Virus record (IMG/VR): IMGVR_UViG_3300021371_000072 | Coordinates: 1 to 30,465 of that record | Source: a virus | Length of the DNA: 30,465 bases | Direction: 5' to 3' (one strand) | Shown here: one piece after another, positions 1 through 30,465 of the stretch | Position numbering within the stretch: the stretch's first letter is position 1 | How the letters are laid out: each line of letters begins with the position of its first letter | The notes under the pieces: generated by a model | Told to the model about the DNA's origin: nothing | What the model saw: only the letters and a program-made list of their open reading frames with translations | The model's database searches: none | Made by a program: the position numbers and the translations under genes

Positions 1-145
1 TGTAGAGATATTTGTAGCTAGTGTGTAATGATAGCATTAGAACGATACTTAAATAGTTTCGGTAAGAGTGTTGTCAATAAAGCTAAAGGAATACTAAAAA
101 GAAAAAAAAAGGTAGTATCAGGTAAACTTCTTAATAGTATATCTT
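1..145. repeat. Terminal direct repeat, left copy (circular overlap)
   Basis: Matches 30321-30465 base for base except position 127 (C here, A at 30447). The repeat runs through the end of the preceding structural gene and the start of the next one, so it is not a coding boundary. Most likely it is assembler overlap of a circular or circularly permuted genome of 30,320 bp. A short genuine terminal redundancy cannot be excluded from sequence alone. Confidence 0.93.
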
Positions 146-5598: not shown

Positions 5599-7002
5599 AT
5601 GGCAAAAGAAATTATAGAAGCAGAAGTAAAATCAAATATAGGCGAGGTAGCTAAAGAAACAGAACAACTAGCAGAAGCTACCAAAGATGCTGAGAAAGGA
5701 TTTAAAGGAATAGGTAGTACTATTAAAGGTATGGGTACTGCTTTAAAAGCAGCAGGTATTGGTCTAGTAGTAGGATTGTTTGCTAAGCTAATGGATGTCT
5801 TTAGACAAAACCAATCAGTAGTAGATATATTTAATACTGCTATGGAGTTTTTAAGTTTAACATTTAACGACTTCTTTAAATTTTTACAAAATAACATTAA
5901 TACTGCATCAGGATTTATGGATAAAATCTTTGGTAATGAAGCAGTACAAAATGTAATAGACTTTGGTAGGACTTTAAGTATTGAGGTTATTACTAGAGTA
6001 AAAAACTTAGTACAAGGTATTGGTGGTTTAGGTTCTGCATTAGTTAAGTTGTTTAAAAGAGATTTTGCAGGTGCTAGTGAAACTGCTAAAGCTGCAATAA
6101 CTGATCTTACAGAAGTTGTAACAGGTAACGTAGTGGAAACTGTAGAGATGGAAAAAACTATTACTAAAGTTACTGATAAGATAAAAGAATATGCTAAATC
6201 TACATATGATAGTGCTAAAGCAATAACTGAAATGAATAAAGCTGCTGAATTAGCAGCAGTTAAAAATCAACAAATAATAGAGCAGAAAGATAGAGAAGCT
6301 GAATTACAAAGACAGATAAGAGATGATGAAAGTAAGACATTTGAAGATAGAATAAAAGCTAACGAAAAGTTAGGAACTATATTAGAAGAACAAAAAAAAT
6401 TAATGCTTGAAAATGCAGATGCTATAGTAGTAGCAGCACAAGCACAATATGACAAAAATAAAAGTGATGAAAATAATATAGCTTTAATACAAGCTAAAAC
6501 AGAAAAAGATGCAGTATTAGCACAGATTACTGGTTTTCAATCTGAGCAGTTAGTAAATCAAGTAGCTTTAGAAAAAGAGAAAACACAACTAGCTATAGAG
6601 AACGCAGATGCACAGATACAAGCATATAGCGACCTCGCAGGTGCATTAAGTAGTTTAGCAGGAGATAATAAGGCATTAGCAGTAGCACAAGCAACTATAG
6701 ATACTTATGCAGGTGCTAACAAGGCATTTGCACAAGGTGGTGTAGCAGGTTTTGTAACTGGTGCAGCTATTGTAGCAGCAGGTTTGTCAAATATTAGAAA
6801 AATACTATCTACAGAAGTTCCAGGAGGTACAAATCCACCAACACCATCAACAGACACAGGAACTCCTGCACCTCAGGTACTTAGTGGTGCATTTACATTA
6901 GGTGGTGGAGAAGCACAACCAGTACAAGCATACGTTGTTACAGATGATATGACTAACAATCAAAATAAGTTAGCAAATATTCGTAGGAGAGCAACTATTT
7001 AA
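5599..7002 (+). CDS. Tail tape measure protein
   Basis: Protein of 467 aa. The N-terminus (residues 1-45) is charged and helical, followed by a hydrophobic segment (about 48-68, AAGIGLVVGLFAKLMDVF) and further hydrophobic helices to about 160. Residues about 210-345 form a long Gln/Glu/Lys-rich coiled coil, and a second Ala/Gly-rich hydrophobic segment (about 360-400) precedes a Pro/Thr-rich linker (PTPSTDTGTPAP). This layout is typical of siphovirus tape measures. At roughly 0.15 nm per residue it would fit a short tail of about 70 nm. It ends the tail operon; a late-promoter motif follows at once. It lies after the tip proteins rather than before them, which is the reverse of lambda order. 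Confidence 0.8.
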   Translation: MAKEIIEAEVKSNIGEVAKETEQLAEATKDAEKGFKGIGSTIKGMGTALKAAGIGLVVGLFAKLMDVFRQNQSVVDIFNTAMEFLSLTFNDFFKFLQNNINTASGFMDKIFGNEAVQNVIDFGRTLSIEVITRVKNLVQGIGGLGSALVKLFKRDFAGASETAKAAITDLTEVVTGNVVETVEMEKTITKVTDKIKEYAKSTYDSAKAITEMNKAAELAAVKNQQIIEQKDREAELQRQIRDDESKTFEDRIKANEKLGTILEEQKKLMLENADAIVVAAQAQYDKNKSDENNIALIQAKTEKDAVLAQITGFQSEQLVNQVALEKEKTQLAIENADAQIQAYSDLAGALSSLAGDNKALAVAQATIDTYAGANKAFAQGGVAGFVTGAAIVAAGLSNIRKILSTEVPGGTNPPTPSTDTGTPAPQVLSGAFTLGGGEAQPVQAYVVTDDMTNNQNKLANIRRRATI

Positions 7003-7407: not shown

Positions 7408-8322
7408 ATGAAAAGAAAAGCAACTAAGATTGTAGAGTTAGTAATAGCAGATGATAGCGAAGAATTAACAATAGATGCTATCAGTTTAGTAACTTCTCCT
7501 GCAATAGAACAAGATTTTGTATTCTTTGGTAAAGAGAATAACAACTTGACACTAGCTAAGGTAGATGAGGAGAAACGTATGTTAGTTAGTCCTGCATTAA
7601 TACCTAACAAACAAATATTTAGATATGATCCTAATACTGATTCTAATTACTATGTATATTTCTCAAAAGAAACAGTAAGACAAGCTAGTGAGTTATATCT
7701 AAAACATAACAACCACCACAAAGCTACATATCAACACGAAGATAGAGTATCAGGTGTATTGACTATAGAGAGTTGGATTAAAGAGGGAGAACAAGACAAG
7801 TCTAAGCTATATGGCTTTGACTTACCTGATGGTACTTGGTTTGTTAAAATGAAGATAGAGAATGATGAGATGTGGAGTAAGATAACAGGTGGGGAATTGC
7901 GAGGTCTAAGTATAGAGGGCTACTTTATTAATAAAATGGAAAAAATGGGTAAACAACAATTTTCAAACGAAGAAATATTAGAAGCATTAAGCGAACTAAT
8001 AAAAGAAAAGACAGAACTAAAAGCTGAAAAGATTGAGTTGGGTGCTATAGATGATTTTGAAAAACAATTTAAAAAAGCTATGGATGACAAAACTGCTTTT
8101 AAATTAATAAGTGCTTTAAGAAAAGCTGAAGTAGGTTTTGAAAATAATATTAAAGAATTTTTAGAAGCATCAAAATTAGGTGGTAAAATAAACACACAAG
8201 CTAAAGATTTAGGAATAGATTTACCACAAACTATAAATAACAAAATTGATTCTTCTGAAGCTGAAATAAAAGAACATAGAAAATATTTATCTAAGATACA
8301 ATCTATGTATAATATGTTCTAA
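7408..8322 (+). CDS. XkdF-like prohead serine protease with C-terminal extension
   Basis: Protein of 304 aa. The N-terminus (TIDAISLVTSPAIEQDFVFF, residues 21-40), the YFSKETVRQASELYLK block, His110 in TYQHEDRV, Glu121-Ser-Trp, and Ser168 in LRGLSIEGYF match the XkdF-like peptidase family (S78-related) that cleaves scaffold and capsid precursors during head maturation. His110 and Ser168 are the likely catalytic residues. Residues about 175-304 are an added helical extension with an AEKIELG segment (206-212) shared with the preceding protein. It sits directly upstream of scaffold and capsid genes, as expected. The extension may serve as scaffold or as a self-processed tail; that is inference. 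Confidence 0.85.
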   Translation: MKRKATKIVELVIADDSEELTIDAISLVTSPAIEQDFVFFGKENNNLTLAKVDEEKRMLVSPALIPNKQIFRYDPNTDSNYYVYFSKETVRQASELYLKHNNHHKATYQHEDRVSGVLTIESWIKEGEQDKSKLYGFDLPDGTWFVKMKIENDEMWSKITGGELRGLSIEGYFINKMEKMGKQQFSNEEILEALSELIKEKTELKAEKIELGAIDDFEKQFKKAMDDKTAFKLISALRKAEVGFENNIKEFLEASKLGGKINTQAKDLGIDLPQTINNKIDSSEAEIKEHRKYLSKIQSMYNMF

Positions 8323-8330
8323 AAACAAAA

Positions 8331-8362
8331 ATCAAACAAACAATAATTAATTCTATTATATA
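8331..8362 (+). promoter_or_regulatory. Late-promoter motif P4 (ATCAAA-N17-TATTATATA)
   Basis: ATCAAA at 8331-8336 and TTCTATTATATA at 8351-8362, with the same 17-nt spacer before TATTAT as P1, P3 and P5. It lies in the gap between the protease and scaffold genes, 12 nt before the scaffold ATG, so it can drive scaffold and capsid as a separate unit. Confidence 0.78.
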
Positions 8363-8374
8363 AAAAAAAGACAA

Positions 8375-9025
8375 ATGGATTTAAAACAACAAATATTAGT
8401 AGCACTTGGTCTTGACAAACAAGAGGAAAGTGTTAATCTTGAATATCAAGCGAAACTAGAAGATGGTACTATAATAGTTTCTACTGCTGAATCTTTAGAA
8501 GCAGGAGTGGACATATCAGTTCTTACAGAAGATGGTACAACTATGTTACTTCCAGTTGGAGAATATAAGACTGAAGATGGTCAAGGATTCTCTGTTGAAG
8601 TAGAGGGTGTTGTAGCTGAAATCTACGAAGAAGAAGTAGAGGAGGAAGCAACAGAAGAAGTAGTTGAAGAAGAAGCATCTAAGGAAGATATGGAAGAAGA
8701 AACTATTGAAGAAACTGAAGCAGTAGAATTTGATTCAGTAGCTTTTATGGATGAAGTTAAGTCCGTAGTAGTTGATCTAATGAGTAATGTAAATACTGAG
8801 ATTGAAACATTAAAATCTGAGTTAGCATCTCTTAAATCAGACAATGAAGAATTATCTTCAGAAAAAGAAAAACTATCTGCACAAGTAGTAGAGTTATCAA
8901 ACGAACCTGCTGCAAAACCTGTAGATACAAACAAATTTAGTGCTTTAGGTAGAGAAAATACACAAAGAGATTTATCTAAAATGACTAAAAGAGAAAGAAT
9001 ATTATATAACATAACAAATAAATAA
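8375..9025 (+). CDS. Capsid scaffolding protein
   Basis: Protein of 216 aa. It has a beta-rich N-terminal part (residues 24-83, LEDGTIIVSTAES, later VGEYKTEDGQGFSVEVEGVV), a very acidic stretch (about 84-118, almost all Glu), a coiled coil (about 140-175) and a basic C-terminal tail (199-216, SKMTKRERILYNITNK). An acidic body, coiled coil and basic C-terminus are typical of phage scaffolds, where the tail binds the capsid subunit. Its position between the protease and the major capsid protein supports this. It ends 11 nt before the capsid ATG. Confidence 0.75.
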   Translation: MDLKQQILVALGLDKQEESVNLEYQAKLEDGTIIVSTAESLEAGVDISVLTEDGTTMLLPVGEYKTEDGQGFSVEVEGVVAEIYEEEVEEEATEEVVEEEASKEDMEEETIEETEAVEFDSVAFMDEVKSVVVDLMSNVNTEIETLKSELASLKSDNEELSSEKEKLSAQVVELSNEPAAKPVDTNKFSALGRENTQRDLSKMTKRERILYNITNK

Positions 9026-10009: not shown

Positions 10010-10576
10010 ATGTCTTGTAATTTAACAAAAGGAAGAAACATAACTTGTAGAGATACAGTTGGTGGAATCAAAGCAATTTACTTTGCACAGTTTGATGAAG
10101 TAGCTTCTTATATAACTGCTTCAGGAGAATTGACTGACTTTGACTTAGGTGCTTCTGATGACATATATAAATACACTTTAAAGAGGGGTACTGCTTCTTG
10201 CACAGAAACTTTAACAGGTTCTAGTGAGAATGGTACTGTATTTTATACACCATCAGTTAATATCAAACTACACAAATTAACAAAAGAAGATCAAAATCAA
10301 GTAAAACTATTAGCTTCTAATAGATTGGTTATCTTCTTAGAATTAAACGAAGTACTAACGGCTAACTCACATAATGTGTTATTAGCTTTAGGATTAGAGA
10401 ATGGAATGGAACTAAACGCAGGTACTAACGCAACAGGAACTGCATTTGGGGATATGAATGGTTACGACTGGACTTTTGATGGTATGGAAAGAGACCCTAT
10501 GCCAACAGTAGCTGACTATACTACAACTCCACTTGACAATTCTGCATTTACTTACCAAAGCATAGTAACTTCGTAA
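10010..10576 (+). CDS. Virion structural protein, candidate major tail tube protein
   Basis: Protein of 188 aa. The N-terminus (MSCNLTKGRNITCRDTVGGI, with Cys3 and Cys13) and the later blocks FYTPSVNIKLHKLTKEDQNQ and LALGLENGMELNAGT, then GTAFGDMNGYDWTFDGMER, match a protein family I know from Flavobacteriia phages beside the capsid gene. Alternating beta strands, small size and an abundant-protein codon pattern would suit a tail tube subunit or a head decoration protein. It follows the capsid gene after a hairpin and is closed by a strong terminator, so it is probably made in large amounts. The tube assignment is inferred. Confidence 0.5.
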   Translation: MSCNLTKGRNITCRDTVGGIKAIYFAQFDEVASYITASGELTDFDLGASDDIYKYTLKRGTASCTETLTGSSENGTVFYTPSVNIKLHKLTKEDQNQVKLLASNRLVIFLELNEVLTANSHNVLLALGLENGMELNAGTNATGTAFGDMNGYDWTFDGMERDPMPTVADYTTTPLDNSAFTYQSIVTS

Positions 10577-11433: not shown

Positions 11434-11598
11434 ATGAAGTTATCATTAGGAATATCTTTACCAACTAGCAATAAGGGTGCTACACCTATTCAAAGACAAG
11501 CTAATGCCTTTAAAGCAAGAGTTATTGCTGATGGTGGAGTATTTGAAGCTAAGGCTTGTTTGATAGACCAATTAAAAATATTAAATAATATAGCATGA
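11434..11598 (+). CDS. Small 54-aa protein preceding the fibre genes
   Basis: Short ORF: ATG three bases after the previous stop and TGA overlapping the next ATG (ATGA), so it fills an otherwise unexplained 164-nt gap with coding-like codons. The C-terminal half (FKARVIADGGVFEAKACLID) resembles a short segment (RVxADGGxxEAxxCL) that I have seen at the start of Bacteroidota phage structural proteins. It probably works with the fibre proteins that follow, perhaps as a small assembly or attachment peptide. The role is unknown. Confidence 0.65.
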   Translation: MKLSLGISLPTSNKGATPIQRQANAFKARVIADGGVFEAKACLIDQLKILNNIA

Positions 11599-13241
11599 GT
11601 TTATTAGATGATGTAAGTATTGTAGTTACTCCAAATGGATATAAGGCAGGAACTTTGTATGGTGTTATACCTAGTAGTGGTGCTGCTGATATGGATGTTA
11701 CTAGAGCAACTGCTGGTACAAGAGTAGATGAGAATGGTTTAGTAAATTATGCTGAGGTTTTAGGAGGGGAAGAAGTAACTAATGGCGACTTTGCTACAGA
11801 TTTAAGTGGTTGGACTATTAATAATTGGGATTTATCTGAATGGACAAGTCAAGGATTACATTTACAAGAAGCAGCAGCAGGTCAATATGCAACTGCTACA
11901 CAAAACATACCTTTAGTAGTTGGTAAAACATATAATTACTCTGTAACTTTAGTGCAAAATGGTGCAGCTACAATATTATTACAACAAGGTAGTAACACTA
12001 CAATTTTAAGCATTAATTCATCAGGAACATATACAGGTACATTTGTTGCTAGTCAATCAGGAAATTTTGGTTTCAAAAATTTAGTTGATGTAAACAATGC
12101 AGATTGGTATATTTCTAATGTTTCATTAAAAGAAGTAAACAGAAACAACGTACCTCGTATAGACTACACAGGAGGAGGTTGTCCACATATATTAGCAGAG
12201 CCACAGAGGACTAATAGTTTTACTTATAGTGAAGATTTTAATCAGAGTTCTTGGTCTAAAATAGGAATTACAGTTACACCTAATTCATTAATAAGTCCTG
12301 ATGGCACACAAAATGCAGGTAAACTTGTCGCAACAAATGGTGCTTCAAATAAAATAATTTATCAATCAATATCTGCAAACACCTATACTGCTTCTGTATT
12401 TGCAAAAAAAGGAGAGTTTGAAGGTTTATTAATTGCAACTGGTACAACTGGTGCGTTTTTTAATTTAAATACATATGCTTACAGAACTCATTACACAAAT
12501 GCTCCAACAAGTTATAAAATTGAAAACTATGGTAATGGTTGGTATCGTTATAGTATAACTTTTACTCAATCATCTTCTGATAACCTATATATAGGTGTAA
12601 ACGACAATGTAAGCACAACTTTTGCAATAACTGGAAACGGAACAAGTGGTATTTATACATTTGGCGCACAATTAGAAGAAGGTTCTTACCCAACATCATA
12701 CATACCAACATCAGGAAGTACAGTTACAAGAAACGCTGACATCTTTCAAAGAGATGGTATAAGTAGTTTAATTAATAGTACAGAGGGGGTATTGTTTGCT
12801 GAAATGTCTGCTTTAGCTAATGATGGAACTTTTCGAATTATATCTTTGTCAGATGGCACTGGTTCTAATAGATTATGGTTATATTTTACAGTAGGAAGTA
12901 ATTTGATACAAGTTTTTGATGGCACTACTATTATGGCTCATACAATAGATGTTACAAATATGATAAAAGTAGCAGCAGTTTTTGATAGTAACGGAACGAG
13001 AATGTGGGTAAATGGCTCACAAGTAGGTTCAAATTCCTACGTTGGATTTAGTGGGTTTGACAGATTAAATTTTTCTTCTGAAAGTGGTAGTAATAATTTC
13101 TTTGGCAAAATAAAACAAGTACAAGTTTACGATACTGCATTAACAGATAATCAACTTATACAACTAACAGGAGAAGCAGGTACTCACTTTTTTGAATCTT
13201 ATTCAGAGATGGCAGAAACATTAACATATACAATACAATAA
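11595..13241 (+). CDS. Fibre/spike protein with CBM-like and LamG-like domains (paralogue 1)
   Basis: Protein of 548 aa. A short N-terminal anchor region (MDVTRATAGTRVDENGLV, about residues 34-51) is followed by a CBM-like jelly roll (about 55-195), a second beta-sandwich (about 205-375, starting HILAEPQRTNSFTYSEDF and ending in FGAQLEEGSYPTSYIPT) and a C-terminal concanavalin A/LamG-like domain (about 385-530, GKIKQVQVYDTALTD). This architecture is that of phage head-spike or fibre proteins that bind surface glycans. It is followed by a tandem paralogue with the same domain order. A placement on head or neck rather than tail tip is suggested by its neighbours (capsid unit and portal) but is not proven. 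Confidence 0.75.
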   Translation: MSLLDDVSIVVTPNGYKAGTLYGVIPSSGAADMDVTRATAGTRVDENGLVNYAEVLGGEEVTNGDFATDLSGWTINNWDLSEWTSQGLHLQEAAAGQYATATQNIPLVVGKTYNYSVTLVQNGAATILLQQGSNTTILSINSSGTYTGTFVASQSGNFGFKNLVDVNNADWYISNVSLKEVNRNNVPRIDYTGGGCPHILAEPQRTNSFTYSEDFNQSSWSKIGITVTPNSLISPDGTQNAGKLVATNGASNKIIYQSISANTYTASVFAKKGEFEGLLIATGTTGAFFNLNTYAYRTHYTNAPTSYKIENYGNGWYRYSITFTQSSSDNLYIGVNDNVSTTFAITGNGTSGIYTFGAQLEEGSYPTSYIPTSGSTVTRNADIFQRDGISSLINSTEGVLFAEMSALANDGTFRIISLSDGTGSNRLWLYFTVGSNLIQVFDGTTIMAHTIDVTNMIKVAAVFDSNGTRMWVNGSQVGSNSYVGFSGFDRLNFSSESGSNNFFGKIKQVQVYDTALTDNQLIQLTGEAGTHFFESYSEMAETLTYTIQ

Positions 13242-14845
13242 TGGCAAATGCAAGTTTACAAATAGGTAATGGTAATTGGGCAATAAAAGAAGATAATCTA
13301 TTAGGTTATAGTAAATCAGGTACAAGATTCTTACCAATACCAATAACAATGACTAGAGCAACATTAGGTACTAGAGTTAATCCTAGTGGCTTGATAGAAG
13401 ATGTAGCTTTGTTAGGTAGTGAGTTAGTTAGTTGTGGGGACTTTGCTTGTGCAGACCCTGATGCTGTTTGGAATAGGGGTACAGGTTGGACTATATCAGG
13501 AGGTTCTGCTAATTGTGATGGTAGTCAATCAAGTCAATCCAATTTATATCAAACAGGTATTGTTCCTATAAATATTTCTTATAAAGTAACATTTACTACA
13601 ACTGTTTCGGCAGGAGGAGTTACATTAGCAATAGGTGGTTCAAATGCACAAACTATTACAACAGAATCAGGAACTTATACTTTTACATCAAAAGCAACAA
13701 GTGGAGATTCTAATTTTTATTTTTCTGCTAATTCAGATTTTATTGGCTCAATATCTAACGTATCAGTAAAAGAAGCAACAATAGATGGTTTAGCAAGAGT
13801 AGATTATACAGATGGTACTGGTAGTTTATTAGTAGAACCTCAAAGGACTAATTTAGTTACTTATAGTCAAGATACAAGTCAATGGACAGATTCAGGTATG
13901 ACTTATTCAGTTGATTATATTATAAGTCCTGATGGAACTTCTAATGGAAGTAAAGCTATTATTAATGATACTATAACATCATCAAACACAAGACCAATGA
14001 CTTCTGTTGCAGTAACAAGTGGAACAAATTATGTTTTTTCTGTTTTTGGTAAAGCTGATGAGTTTGATATGATAAATTTAGATTTTTCAAATTCTGCTTT
14101 TAGTAGTGTATCTGTAGATTACAATTTAACAAATGGAACTGTAACAAGTTTTACAGGTTCTCCTGTAAGTCAAGGTGTAGAAGATTATGGTAATGGGTGG
14201 TATAGGTGTTATGTAGTAGCAACAGCAATAGCAACAACTACTACTGCATTAATAATAAGGTTAGATGACAATCCAACAGGAGATGGTACAAGTGGATTAT
14301 ATTTGTGGGGCGCACAAGCAGAAGCAGGCTCTTACCCAACTTCTTACATAAAAACACAAGGTTCATCAGTAACTAGAAACGCAGACCTATACGAAAAGAC
14401 AGGTATTAGTAATTTGATAAATAGTACAGAGGGGGTTTTGTTTGTTGAAGCAAAAACAATTTACGATAGTTCTACATCAAGAAGAATAAGTTTGTCAGAT
14501 GGAAGTATAAATAATAGAGTAATGTTGGAATTTGACGAAACTACAGAAAATACAATTAAAGCAGTTATTACTACAGGTGGTGTTAATTCTGCTATAATGA
14601 CTTTTGCAGCATCAGATTTATCTCAATACAATAAAATTGCTATAAAATATAAATTAAATGATTTTTCTATTTGGTTTAATGGAACGGAAGTGGTTACTGA
14701 TTCTTCAGGAGGTGTGCCAACAGGATTAACACAACTCGTATTAGATGGAGGAGATGGTAGTAATTTTTTCTATGGAGAAGTAAAACAACTACAAGTATTT
14801 AAAACAGCACTATCAGATTCAGAATTAGCAACACTAACAACATAA
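13241..14845 (+). CDS. Fibre/spike protein with CBM-like and LamG-like domains (paralogue 2)
   Basis: Protein of 534 aa, a clear paralogue of the preceding protein. Shared landmarks are MTRATLGTRVNPSGLIEDV at the anchor, SLLVEPQRTNLVTYSQD in the middle, AGSYPTSYIKTQGSSVTRNAD and LINSTEGVLF before the LamG-like domain, and EVKQLQVFKTALSDSE at the end. The first CBM-like region is the most divergent (including a Cys pair in SCGDFACADPD), which is what specialisation for a different glycan would produce. It overlaps the first paralogue by one base (TAATG). It is probably a second receptor-binding spike. That the pair arose by duplication is inferred from shared order and motifs. Confidence 0.75.
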   Translation: MANASLQIGNGNWAIKEDNLLGYSKSGTRFLPIPITMTRATLGTRVNPSGLIEDVALLGSELVSCGDFACADPDAVWNRGTGWTISGGSANCDGSQSSQSNLYQTGIVPINISYKVTFTTTVSAGGVTLAIGGSNAQTITTESGTYTFTSKATSGDSNFYFSANSDFIGSISNVSVKEATIDGLARVDYTDGTGSLLVEPQRTNLVTYSQDTSQWTDSGMTYSVDYIISPDGTSNGSKAIINDTITSSNTRPMTSVAVTSGTNYVFSVFGKADEFDMINLDFSNSAFSSVSVDYNLTNGTVTSFTGSPVSQGVEDYGNGWYRCYVVATAIATTTTALIIRLDDNPTGDGTSGLYLWGAQAEAGSYPTSYIKTQGSSVTRNADLYEKTGISNLINSTEGVLFVEAKTIYDSSTSRRISLSDGSINNRVMLEFDETTENTIKAVITTGGVNSAIMTFAASDLSQYNKIAIKYKLNDFSIWFNGTEVVTDSSGGVPTGLTQLVLDGGDGSNFFYGEVKQLQVFKTALSDSELATLTT

Positions 14846-26667: not shown

Positions 26668-26940
26668 ATGGATGGCAGAATAAACAATAAAGGTACAAAA
26701 GGAAACAAAGGTGGTAGACCATCTAAAGCAGAAGAACAAAAGCTAATAGAAAACCTTACACCTATGAACGCAGATGCTTTAAAGTCTTTACAGATAGGTC
26801 TAAAGAATAAAGAACAATGGGCAGTTAAATTATTCTTTGAGTACTTCTATGGTAAACCACAACAGAGAGTTGATGTTACGAGTAATAGCGAAACACTAAA
26901 CATACCTATAATAAACTTTGTTGAATCCGAAACTGAATAA
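26668..26940 (+). CDS. Terminase small subunit-like protein
   Basis: Protein of 90 aa. The GNKGGRPSKAEEQKLIENL start and the LFFEYFYGKPQQRV block match small terminase-like proteins found ahead of TerL in Bacteroidota phages. It would bind phage DNA and start packaging. It overlaps TerL by 23 nt, in a different frame. It is shorter than many small terminases, with no separate oligomerisation domain visible. Confidence 0.7.
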   Translation: MDGRINNKGTKGNKGGRPSKAEEQKLIENLTPMNADALKSLQIGLKNKEQWAVKLFFEYFYGKPQQRVDVTSNSETLNIPIINFVESETE

Positions 26941-28129
26941 AAAATATAGTGCATTATTTTCATCTAACTGTAGATACTATATAATTACAGGTGGTAGAGG
27001 ATCAGGTAAGTCCTATGCAGTTACAGTATTTCTAACATTACTTACAATGACACAAGGTATAAGAGTGTTGTTTACAAGATACACTATGGTATCTGCTCAC
27101 TTATCTATTATACCTGAGTTCTTAGAAAAGATAGGACTATTAGGATTTGATTCTATATTTAGCATTAACAAGTCAGAGGTAGTCAATACATCAACAAAGA
27201 GTGATATACTATTTAGAGGTATAAAGACATCATCAGGAAACCAAACTGCTTCTCTTAAGTCATTACAAGGCATATCGTGTTGGGTACTTGATGAAGCAGA
27301 AGAACTTATAGATGAAAATATATTTGACACTATAGACCTTAGTATAAGACAGAAAAGCATACAGAATAGAATTATACTTGTCTTAAATCCAGTAACAAAA
27401 GAACATTGGATATATAAACGATTCTTTGAGGAGAGAGGGGTTAGGGATGGTTTTAACGGCATTAAAGACAATGTCTGCTATATACACTCCACATACTTAG
27501 ATAATAAAGCTAACCTATCTAAAAGTTTCTTAGAAAGGATATATAGATTAAAAGACATTAACTTTAAAAAGTATCAACATAAGATTTTAGGAGGTTGGTT
27601 AGATAAAGCAGAGGGTGTAGTATTTGATAACTGGACAATAGGAGAATTTAATCCTGATAACTTACAGACATCTTGTGGAATGGACTTTGGTTTTTCTGTT
27701 GATCCTGATAGTCTTACTGAGGTTGCTATAGACAAAAAGAAAATGAAGATATATATCAAAGAGCATATATATCGTAATGGTTTAAAATCACACGAGTTAG
27801 CTAAGATAGTATTAGCAAAGGTAGAGAACAAACTAATTATAGCAGATAGTGCAGAACCTAGACTGATAGAAGATTTAAGACATTTAGGAGTAAACATAAA
27901 GCCAGTAAAGAAAGGAACTATAGAAAGTGGTGTAACTCGTATGCAAGATTATCAGTTAGTAGTTACTTCTGAATCAACAAACATAATTAAAGAGTTAAAC
28001 AACTATGTCTATGCAGATAAAGGAAGCAAGTTATATGTAGATAGTTATAACCACGCAATAGATGGTATTAGGTATAACGTAATATATCACTTAGACAATC
28101 CAAACGCAGGTAGGTATTTTGTTCAATAA
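26918..28129 (+). CDS. terL: Terminase large subunit
   Basis: Protein of 403 aa. Walker A is GGRGSGKS (25-32), Walker B is WVLDEAEE (122-129), and the coupling motif is VLNPVT (155-160). The nuclease residues are Asp256 in CGMDFGFS, Asp310 in IIADSAEP and Asp382 in HAIDGIRY, so ATPase motor and RNase H-like nuclease are both complete. It belongs to the Terminase_3 type. The start is TTG at 26918 (a second TTG follows at once); no ATG lies before Walker A in this frame. It cuts and pumps genomic DNA into the head through the portal. Confidence 0.93.
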   Translation: MLNPKLNKKYSALFSSNCRYYIITGGRGSGKSYAVTVFLTLLTMTQGIRVLFTRYTMVSAHLSIIPEFLEKIGLLGFDSIFSINKSEVVNTSTKSDILFRGIKTSSGNQTASLKSLQGISCWVLDEAEELIDENIFDTIDLSIRQKSIQNRIILVLNPVTKEHWIYKRFFEERGVRDGFNGIKDNVCYIHSTYLDNKANLSKSFLERIYRLKDINFKKYQHKILGGWLDKAEGVVFDNWTIGEFNPDNLQTSCGMDFGFSVDPDSLTEVAIDKKKMKIYIKEHIYRNGLKSHELAKIVLAKVENKLIIADSAEPRLIEDLRHLGVNIKPVKKGTIESGVTRMQDYQLVVTSESTNIIKELNNYVYADKGSKLYVDSYNHAIDGIRYNVIYHLDNPNAGRYFVQ

Positions 28130-28236: not shown

Positions 28237-28881
28237 ATGCAGGTAAACATTAAGAAAGATGGTAAGCAAAACACTTACAATCTAATTAACAGTTGGGATG
28301 ATGTAACACTTGACAAATGGGCTAAACTTATAGATAGTAAAAGTAAGTCAAAGACCAAAGAAGCATTAGATACAATTAGCTTGTTATCTGATATACCTAG
28401 AAAACTCGTAAAAGAGTTGAGTATAAATGATGTATCTAATATCTTAAACAGAGTAGCTGCGTTGCAGAACAAAGCTAGTAGTAGGTTAAAAAGAATAATA
28501 AAGGTAGATGATGTAGAGTACGGCTTTCATCCTGATCTATCAGAAATTACTCTTGGAGAATATGCAGATATTGAAACCTACATACAAAACGGAATGGAAA
28601 AGAACTTAGCTAAGTTAATGGCAGTTCTTTACAGACCAGTAGTAGAGAAGAATGGTAAATACTATTCTATAGAGAAATATAATGGTAGTGGTGTACGGAT
28701 GAGAGCAGAGAAGTTTAAGAAGATGAAAGCAGCAGATGTAAATAGTTCATTGGTTTTTTTTTGGACTTTAGGCAACGAACTATCGACAATTTTGCCGTTG
28801 TATTTGATGGAACGGATGGAGGAAGTGAAACAATCACTACTGATGAAAAGTTCGCAACAAAGTGGTCTTGGTTCGGAGTGA
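28237..28881 (+). CDS. Tail assembly chaperone (gpG-like), with programmed -1 frameshift
   Basis: Protein of 214 aa in the main frame. It is helical and charged, with blocks LINSWDDVTLDKWAKLIDSK, FHPDLSEITLGEYADIETYI and LAKLMAVLYRPVVEKNGKYY, a pattern I associate with tail chaperones of Flavobacteriia phages. Codons 173-175 (GTT TTT TTT) carry a T TTT TTT heptamer at 28755-28761. A -1 slip there continues into the overlapping frame to 29006 and gives a 256-aa fusion. This matches lambda gpG/gpGT, where the longer form helps load the tail tube onto the tape measure. The main-frame tail after the slip site is 39 aa. Confidence 0.75.
   Translation: MQVNIKKDGKQNTYNLINSWDDVTLDKWAKLIDSKSKSKTKEALDTISLLSDIPRKLVKELSINDVSNILNRVAALQNKASSRLKRIIKVDDVEYGFHPDLSEITLGEYADIETYIQNGMEKNLAKLMAVLYRPVVEKNGKYYSIEKYNGSGVRMRAEKFKKMKAADVNSSLVFFWTLGNELSTILPLYLMERMEEVKQSLLMKSSQQSGLGSE
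28755..28800 (+). other. Candidate programmed -1 ribosomal frameshift site
   Basis: Slippery heptamer T TTT TTT at 28755-28761 in phase with the chaperone frame, inside a run of nine T (28754-28762). About 9-11 nt downstream, GGCAA (28771-28775) can pair with TTGCC (28792-28796), or CAACG (28773-28777) with CGTTG (28796-28800), either of which could stimulate slippage. The open -1 frame starts at exactly this point (TTG 28761). Confidence 0.75.
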
Positions 28882-29006
28882 TGTATAATTTGACAGGAGG
28901 TAGTATAGTAAACTTAGAGAGAATAACTAAATTAAGTTTATATGAATGTTTAACTTGGCTTACTTATGAGGTTGATTTAAACGAAACAAAAAAGGTTAAA
29001 AGATGA
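28761..29006 (+). CDS. Frameshift extension of tail chaperone (gpT-like part)
   Basis: Eighty-one codons in the -1 frame, overlapping the chaperone by 121 nt. It has no good start of its own; the first codon, TTG, lies in the slippery T-run. The segment KWSWFGVMYNLTGGSIVNLE and ITKLSLYECLTWLTYEVD looks like the second domain of tail chaperones (a Trp-rich helix followed by LxxCLxxLxYE). It is probably made only as a fusion with residues 1-175 of the chaperone. The stop overlaps the next ATG by 4 nt. Confidence 0.7.
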   Translation: MDFRQRTIDNFAVVFDGTDGGSETITTDEKFATKWSWFGVMYNLTGGSIVNLERITKLSLYECLTWLTYEVDLNETKKVKR

Positions 29007-29497: not shown

Positions 29498-29565
29498 TGT
29501 TTAAAATAAAAATAGGAAAATTAACAATACAACTAATACCACCAAAGATAAGTTATGAATTATGA
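29497..29565 (+). CDS. Possible 22-aa peptide between tail genes
   Basis: ATG in a TAATG overlap with the preceding stop; the stop lies 11 nt into the next gene. The product (MFKIKIGKLTIQLIPPKISY plus two residues) is basic and hydrophobic. The coupled start and the filling of a 57-nt gap favour expression; the very short length argues against. It may be the remnant of a longer gene. Confidence 0.35.
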   Translation: MFKIKIGKLTIQLIPPKISYEL

Positions 29566-29902
29566 AGATGTAATAGAGAAGCTAGAAGAAATAAGCATAA
29601 ACTTTGAAAGCTATAATGACTATCCTGATAGTGCTAGTAACAATGCTAAAAGAGCAATAGAATGGAAAGAGGAGAACGGAAGTGATTGTGGTACTAGAGT
29701 TGGTTGGACAAGAGCAGGACAATTAGCAAGAAAAGAAAATATAAGTAGAGATACTATAGCAAGGATGGCTTCATTTAAAAGACATCAACAAAATAAAGAT
29801 GTACCTTACTCAGAGGGTTGTGGAGGTATTATGTGGGATGCTTGGGGTGGAACTTCAGGAATAGAATGGGCAATTAATAAATTAAAACAAATAGATAAAT
29901 AA
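29555..29902 (+). CDS. Phage protein with conserved Cys/Gly/Trp domain
   Basis: Protein of 115 aa. The blocks YPDSASNNAKRAIEWKEENG, DCGTRVGWTRAGQLARKENI, RDTIARMASFKRHQ, SEGCGGIMWDAWGG and IEWAINKLKQ form a domain I recall from Bacteroidota phages, often fused to protease or portal proteins and here standing alone in the tail region. Its function is unknown. The precise arrangement of Cys, Gly and Trp suggests a compact functional domain rather than a scaffold. Confidence 0.6.
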   Translation: MNYEDVIEKLEEISINFESYNDYPDSASNNAKRAIEWKEENGSDCGTRVGWTRAGQLARKENISRDTIARMASFKRHQQNKDVPYSEGCGGIMWDAWGGTSGIEWAINKLKQIDK

Positions 29903-29904
29903 TT

Positions 29905-30348
29905 ATGGCAGATTTAACAACAACCTTATCTGAATCAGTAACACTAAATGGTGCAGTAAGAGGTACAACAAACACAGTAACAACTACAGGAATTAATAAC
30001 GTATATGAAAGAATTGTAACTTGTACTATAGATGAAACAACACATCTAGCAACTTTTGATTCTGATTCTTTTGGTTCAGCAGTTCAGATAGATAAAGAAG
30101 ATGTTAGATATATTAGAGTAACTAATCTTGATGCTACTGACAGTTTAGAATTAGCAGTAGTTGGTGCAGCTACTAATTATCAAGTATTACTAAAAGCAGG
30201 TCAATCACATATACTATGTGCAGCAGAAGATGTTATGTTAGCAGAAGCTGATACATCTCCTAGCTTTGGCACTATGGCTGACTTAACAAGCATACAAGTA
30301 CACCCTGTTGCTACATTAGATGTAGAGATATTTGTAGCTAGTGTGTAA
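29905..30348 (+). CDS. Beta-rich virion structural protein
   Basis: Protein of 147 aa, nearly all predicted beta strands (SESVTLNGAVRGTTNTVTTT, DVRYIRVTNLDATDSLELAV, LTSIQVHPVATLDVEIFVAS), with no Cys cluster and no membrane segment. It lies 2 nt after the preceding gene and its stop overlaps the gp10-like start. A tail tube or tail-associated protein is possible; if this is the tube, the protein at 10010 would be something else. No named family is recognised. Confidence 0.5.
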   Translation: MADLTTTLSESVTLNGAVRGTTNTVTTTGINNVYERIVTCTIDETTHLATFDSDSFGSAVQIDKEDVRYIRVTNLDATDSLELAVVGAATNYQVLLKAGQSHILCAAEDVMLAEADTSPSFGTMADLTSIQVHPVATLDVEIFVASV

Positions 30349-30465
30349 TGATAGCATTAGAACGATACTTAAATAGTTTCGGTAAGAGTGTTGTCAATAA
30401 AGCTAAAGGAATACTAAAAAGAAAAAAAAAGGTAGTATCAGGTAAAATTCTTAATAGTATATCTT
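30321..30465. repeat. Terminal direct repeat, right copy (circular overlap)
   Basis: Copy of positions 1-145 with a single difference at 30447 (A instead of C). Joining the copies restores the TAATG coupling between the beta-rich structural protein and the gp10-like gene. Confidence 0.93.
30348..30465 (+). CDS. Partial second copy of the gp10-like gene start
   Basis: The first 39 codons of the gene at 28-549, present again because of the circular overlap. Codon 34 is ATT (Ile) here and CTT (Leu) in the left copy. It is not a separate gene. Confidence 0.9.
   Translation, partial: MIALERYLNSFGKSVVNKAKGILKRKKKVVSGKILNSIS

Follow-up and report, generated by a model that had tools for sequence, protein, structure and literature searches.

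How the two overlapping reading frames that meet at a run of nine T's downstream of a terminase gene are expressed, and which machine would join them, is the question raised by a marine phage locus in the viral record IMGVR_UViG_3300021371_000072 (IMG/VR). The whole 30,465-nt stretch of DNA that was analysed (positions 1 to 30,465 of that record) is hereafter called the window. The locus comprises the following features.

26918-28129, plus strand: terminase large subunit gene (TerL), directly upstream of the chaperone candidate (Terminase_3, E 5.6e-33)
28237-28881, plus strand: 0-frame ORF of 214 codons (214 aa), with a putative gpG-like product that belongs to the phrog_32199 family, for which no function is given there
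28754-28762, plus strand: T9 tract, the candidate slippery site, from the sequence and its relatives
28755-29006, plus strand: -1 frame extension, 81 codons after the shift (FFLDFR...KWSWFGVMYNL...), a putative gpT-like domain with a weak match to phrog_38404
28762-28881, plus strand: dual-coding overlap, in which the 0 and -1 frames are both open
28879-28883, plus strand: TGATG, in which the 0-frame stop overlaps an in-frame ATG of the -1 frame; a possible reinitiation site, disfavoured below

Slippery site and overlapping frames

The run lies within the sequence GTT TTT TTT TGG (28753-28764). A preliminary description of this DNA had placed a T TTT TTT heptamer in the correct phase near the end of the chaperone frame, followed by a -1 frame open for 81 codons, and both statements were confirmed. 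The heptamer occupies positions 28755-28761, spans codons 173-175 of the 214-codon ORF and ends with codon 175. The -1 frame contains a TAG about 9 nt 5' of the heptamer and is then open up to the TGA at 29004-29006. A conceptual -1 shift gives the fusion junction peptide ...VNSSLVFFLDFR in the window. The further statement that the -1 frame has no convincing start was nearly right. Only two in-frame start candidates exist, a TTG at 28761, which is a by-product of the T-run and is missing in relatives where an A comes after the run, and the ATG at 28881, from which translation would leave out the conserved KWxW part of the -1 domain. Neither is usable for the whole domain.

We propose that two proteins are made from one start, a short gpG-like product of 214 residues and a gpGT-like fusion of about 256 residues, in which a -1 slip at the T9 would join the first 175 codons to the 81-codon C-terminal domain. 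If RNA polymerase is the agent, the U-tract being synthesised on the T9 would re-align, so that a fraction of the transcripts would gain one extra U and would then be translated normally into the fusion. Ribosomes may contribute at the in-phase U UUU UUU. By analogy with phage lambda, we infer that numerous copies of the short form and a few of the fusion would together load the tape measure protein and bring in subunits of the tail tube.

Conservation of the arrangement and selection on both frames

A viral contig collection was searched with either frame, which returned more than 500 loci and, once duplicates were removed, 288 distinct sequences. These relatives come from many independent metagenomes and assemblies as well as from cultured phages, and form 120, 53 and 17 clusters when the identity between clusters is held below 90%, 70% and 50%, respectively. 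The comparison of the slippery site and of both frames in related phages, which had been suggested earlier, showed that the arrangement is kept in all of them. The T-run and both frames were present in 288 of 288 distinct relatives, and the run was nine T's long in 271 and ten in 17, with none shorter or longer. In none of the relatives does a stop interrupt the -1 frame between the run and the end of a conserved FFLxFR...KWGW...LxYE domain, which makes an accidental overlap of frames untenable. For the same reason, it is scarcely conceivable that an assembly or sequencing error in the T-run splits what is in reality a single ORF. Homopolymers are error-prone, but the run has 9-10 T in all 288 distinct sequences, which stem from many assemblies, as well as in the isolate genome of P12024L, and the 0-frame tail is itself under selection.

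The cultured relatives are the Nonlabens phages P12024L and P12024S (JQ823123, JQ823122), at about 26% identity. P12024L has the same T9, from which the -1 frame is open into gp41. The homologous pair gp40/gp41, which matches phrog_32199 and phrog_38404, is annotated in these phages as two separate hypothetical proteins, with gp41 starting from an ATG at the stop-start overlap; the present reading would correct this gene model to a fusion. In Flavobacterium phage 6H, what seems to be the corresponding site reads T TTT TTC and is immediately followed by a stop in the -1 frame, so that the scheme does not apply to this phage. Its protein R9VW65 (L368, KC959568; 10047-10927, minus strand) is a weaker structural relative that was identified by length, and about 300 nt lacking annotation after the R9VW65 gene hold an open frame resembling a second chaperone domain, with a frame linkage that looks different. 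Among MAG contigs, a scan matched just three, assigned to hosts that are implausible, and these are probably binned phage.

Substitution patterns by codon position were evaluated on nearest-neighbour pairs within the group of relatives to which the window belongs. Upstream of the run, changes in the 0 frame amounted to 0.093, 0.056 and 0.215 at positions 1, 2 and 3, respectively, and past the 0-frame stop those in the -1 frame amounted to 0.056, 0.054 and 0.192, with a third-position excess in each case. The overlap region showed a mixed pattern, as of two simultaneous frames. When the -1 codons were resampled at fixed protein, the 0 frame was found to be open longer than expected. For most members of the group that includes the window, P was about 0.02-0.16, with 0.0065 for a single one, and several distant lineages gave P <=0.0005. 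Judged from these patterns, the 0 and -1 frames are both under purifying selection. The short product with its own 0-frame tail is maintained as well, because the 0 frame stays open beyond the resampling expectation. In another group of relatives (L246-L290; e.g., L259:56-819), the 0-frame tail overlaps nearly the entire -1 domain, which gives about 240-260 nt of dual coding, and this overlap evolves much more slowly than upstream third positions.

Could the second ORF be translated separately, as a 41-aa protein, by termination-reinitiation at TGATG or TAATG? Of 59 cluster representatives, 40 have a TRATG where the 0 frame ends, and gp41 of P12024L is annotated from such an ATG. However, the residues VM (GTR ATG) of the -1 frame alone force the stop-start overlap. 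Reinitiation cannot generally make the conserved domain, because no ATG precedes the conserved KWxW in 50 of the 59 representatives, and in seven of these 50 the -1 frame lacks an ATG altogether. Moreover, the residues between FFLxFR and KWxW are conserved though a reinitiated product would lack them, and in several relatives the ATG has been lost without loss of the -1 domain. Reinitiation is in our view very unlikely. That the two frames are fused by -1 recoding we hold, from these comparisons, with high confidence, and this part of the programmed -1 frameshift put forward in the preliminary description, namely the -1 fusion of chaperone-like domains, is strongly supported.

Polymerase or ribosome as the slipping machine

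The run measures nine or ten T's across about 14 residue contexts, with V, L, I or F before it and W, Y, S, F, L, V or A after it. Three sequences have GTT or GCT as the codon that follows the heptamer, so that no T is supplied from that side, and TTT as the codon that precedes it; in these the run is shifted by two bases and is still nine long. Avoidance of long runs was assessed in the coding sequence of eleven of these phages (other genes), with the expectation taken from codon shuffling. No run of T>=9 was seen against 4.8 expected, and T8 runs were seen twice against 10.7 expected, while complete in-phase T7 heptamers were tolerated more readily (23 seen, 34 expected). A-runs in the coding sequence of the 11 phages showed a similar length threshold. 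A conserved A/T run of about nine or more at the frame junction, with such runs avoided elsewhere in the same genomes, is the pattern looked for in transcriptional slippage. The RNA polymerase of Escherichia coli slips on T7-T8 at 5-10%, with a poly(T) bias and none below 7 T (PMC6260861), and the RNA-DNA hybrid measures 9-10 bp (PMC5009743). A/T runs of nine are a recognised mark of genes prone to slippage, and coding sequence that is rich in AT avoids them; transcriptional slippage on about nine A or T joins or splits frames in Shigella mxiE and Thermus dnaX, although these are not phage genes and slippage was measured there, whereas we infer it here (PMC1088944). RNA polymerase is our most likely candidate for the slipping agent, with about an even chance. 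The corresponding statement for the whole clade related to the flavobacterial phages P12024L/S, that it makes its tail chaperone fusion by programmed polymerase slippage on an obligatory T9-T10, is likewise one that may equally well prove right or wrong.

The same two products could be made purely by -1 ribosomal frameshifting, if the P- and A-site tRNAs re-pair one base upstream at a few percent without a strong RNA stimulator. An in-phase T TTT TTT, of the X XXY YYZ form, is present in all 288 relatives. This route is used by the tail chaperones of lambda, HK97-like and P2-like phages (PMC5009743; PMC3711429, 6-7% measured; PMC3931495), and a bare heptamer can supply the low ratio needed. 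Yet the heptamer requires only seven T's and the run is never 7 or 8 long in the 288 relatives, its length is kept when the register moves, and in-phase T7 heptamers are tolerated in other genes. Downstream structure is missing too. The alternative 5-bp stems that had been noted downstream of the heptamer exist in the window (GGCAA/TTGCC and CAACG/CGTTG), but among relatives they pair in 70% and 57% of cells, without covariation, and downstream folding energy did not differ from that of shuffled sequences in 27 lineages (mean z 0.01 and -0.19). A stem-loop stimulator was rejected on the lack of conservation, of folding excess and of any conserved downstream structure in the relatives; such structure is common in -1 ribosomal frameshifting but not obligatory. 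A silent TTC at the second Phe codon of the site was seen in 0 of 59 representatives against 17% elsewhere, a weak test, as TTC was equally absent (0 of 59) from a control Phe codon within the overlap.

To our knowledge, the tail-chaperone recoding studied so far is all ribosomal. This prior speaks against polymerase slippage, and it extends to the T-rich sites of P2-like tail chaperones (T6G; T7G predicted in Smp131; PMC3931495). Every T9 necessarily holds an in-phase U UUU UUU, so that phase cannot discriminate between the two machines. The two T's outside the heptamer fall in codons for one aliphatic and one aromatic residue, so that selection on the protein sequence may account for some of the constancy in run length. 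Replication slippage is another possible cause of the scarcity of long runs, and the published slippage rates are those of the E. coli polymerase, not of that of Bacteroidota. The run-length data nevertheless favour transcriptional slippage over purely ribosomal -1 frameshifting, while comparative data alone cannot settle the agent. The ribosome, which the wording of the preliminary description implied, is a serious possibility that we place somewhat short of even, and polymerase slippage is the reading that we prefer.

The recoding itself is of a known kind, found here in an unannotated clade; the run-length rule of 9-10 T is new. P2 gpE/E+E' and Smp131 orf27/27.1 also slip on a T-run in a tail chaperone gene (T6G, T7G, T7C; PMC3931495), but with 6-7 T rather than 9-10, in unrelated proteins and in myophages. 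If polymerase slippage is true, a different machine would stand behind one of the most conserved phage recoding events. In bacteria, dnaX is a known example of one role being filled by ribosomal frameshifting or, in its place, by polymerase slippage. The present clade would provide a natural case, with a cultured phage-host pair, in which to ask whether phages can make the same exchange.

Protein identity and gene context

The AlphaFold (AF2) model of the 0-frame product had a pLDDT of 79.7, and its best VIA-align match was 2ob9_B, the HK97 tail assembly chaperone, with a modest Z of 4.8 (75 residues aligned, rmsd 3.6; next match 2.8). Foldseek of this model against the PDB gave no significant match. 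BFVD matches were mostly unnamed phage proteins, with P12024S high up and named tail assembly chaperones lower. A Pfam search with both frames gave no match, a PDB sequence search returned nothing relevant, and the PHROGs that were matched (phrog_32199 and phrog_38404) are of unknown function. The -1 domain alone yielded a weak model (pLDDT 68) with no clear structural match.

The arrangement shares with lambda gpG/gpGT a short product and a -1 fusion with a second domain, made from one start, with the shift placed close to where the first frame ends (PMC5009743), and a conserved -1 overlapping frame is joined here at a slippery site near the 3' end. In contrast to lambda, the site is a homopolymeric T9-10, a 0-frame tail of 17-80+ codons overlaps the -1 domain, no sequence similarity was found, and the gene adjoins TerL, whereas that of lambda lies just before the tape measure gene. 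Two further genes of the window bear on this comparison.

5599-7002, plus strand: probable tape measure protein, 467 aa, helical with hydrophobic segments, assigned from reading the sequence
10010-10576, plus strand: probable tail tube protein, 188 aa, which we take to be tail-tube-like from its resemblance to such proteins

Because tape-measure-like and tail-tube-like genes are present, a tail chaperone is expected in this genome. The candidate does not lie between them: it comes directly after TerL, at a distance of about 7 kb from the probable tape measure gene, and this post-TerL position is common to the window, P12024L and the relatives checked. For this reason we say that the pair works like gpG/gpGT, which is the best reading, and that membership in that family is only probable. 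The gpG/gpGT-like tail chaperone proposed earlier thus receives moderate support from the 2ob9 fold match, the BFVD names and the tape-measure- and tail-tube-like genes, against its location away from the tape measure.

The recoding could also be real in a protein that is not a tail chaperone, such as an unknown assembly factor linked to packaging. Its place beside TerL and some 7 kb from the tape-measure candidate would fit, as would the missing Pfam match, the modest fold match (Z 4.8) and a second domain without a clear match. Against this, the top structural match is the HK97 chaperone, with 4.8 well above the next 2.8, a -1 fusion architecture is typical of tail chaperones, tail chaperones are among the BFVD matches, and no other chaperone candidate was recognised next to the tape measure. 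We consider such a protein improbable. The tail chaperone reading would give a likely function to the unannotated families phrog_32199 and phrog_38404 and to the P12024 gp40/gp41 pair.

The first and last 145 bases of the record (window positions 1-145 and 30321-30465) coincide apart from a single mismatch, C at 127 against A at 30447, and the window is therefore probably a complete genome, circular or terminally redundant, with a size of about 30.3 kb. The probable tape measure protein (5599-7002) is filed by PHROGs as a head protein (phrog_21537). This candidate has 467 residues in the window and 627 in a relative (L143, 9944-11827), which would predict differing tail lengths. The tail-protein genes at 11595-13241 and 13241-14845 (phrog_5939) are tandem paralogues with 38% identity over 538 residues, and a single site in the same relative matches both. 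A 115-aa ORF at 29555-29902, a fragment of phrog_2859, lies between genes of 164 aa and 147 aa and is absent from the corresponding place in a near-identical relative (L142). Within 7408-9025, one ORF matches the protease-like half of phrog_24921 and a separate ORF matches its other half, and relatives show the same division.
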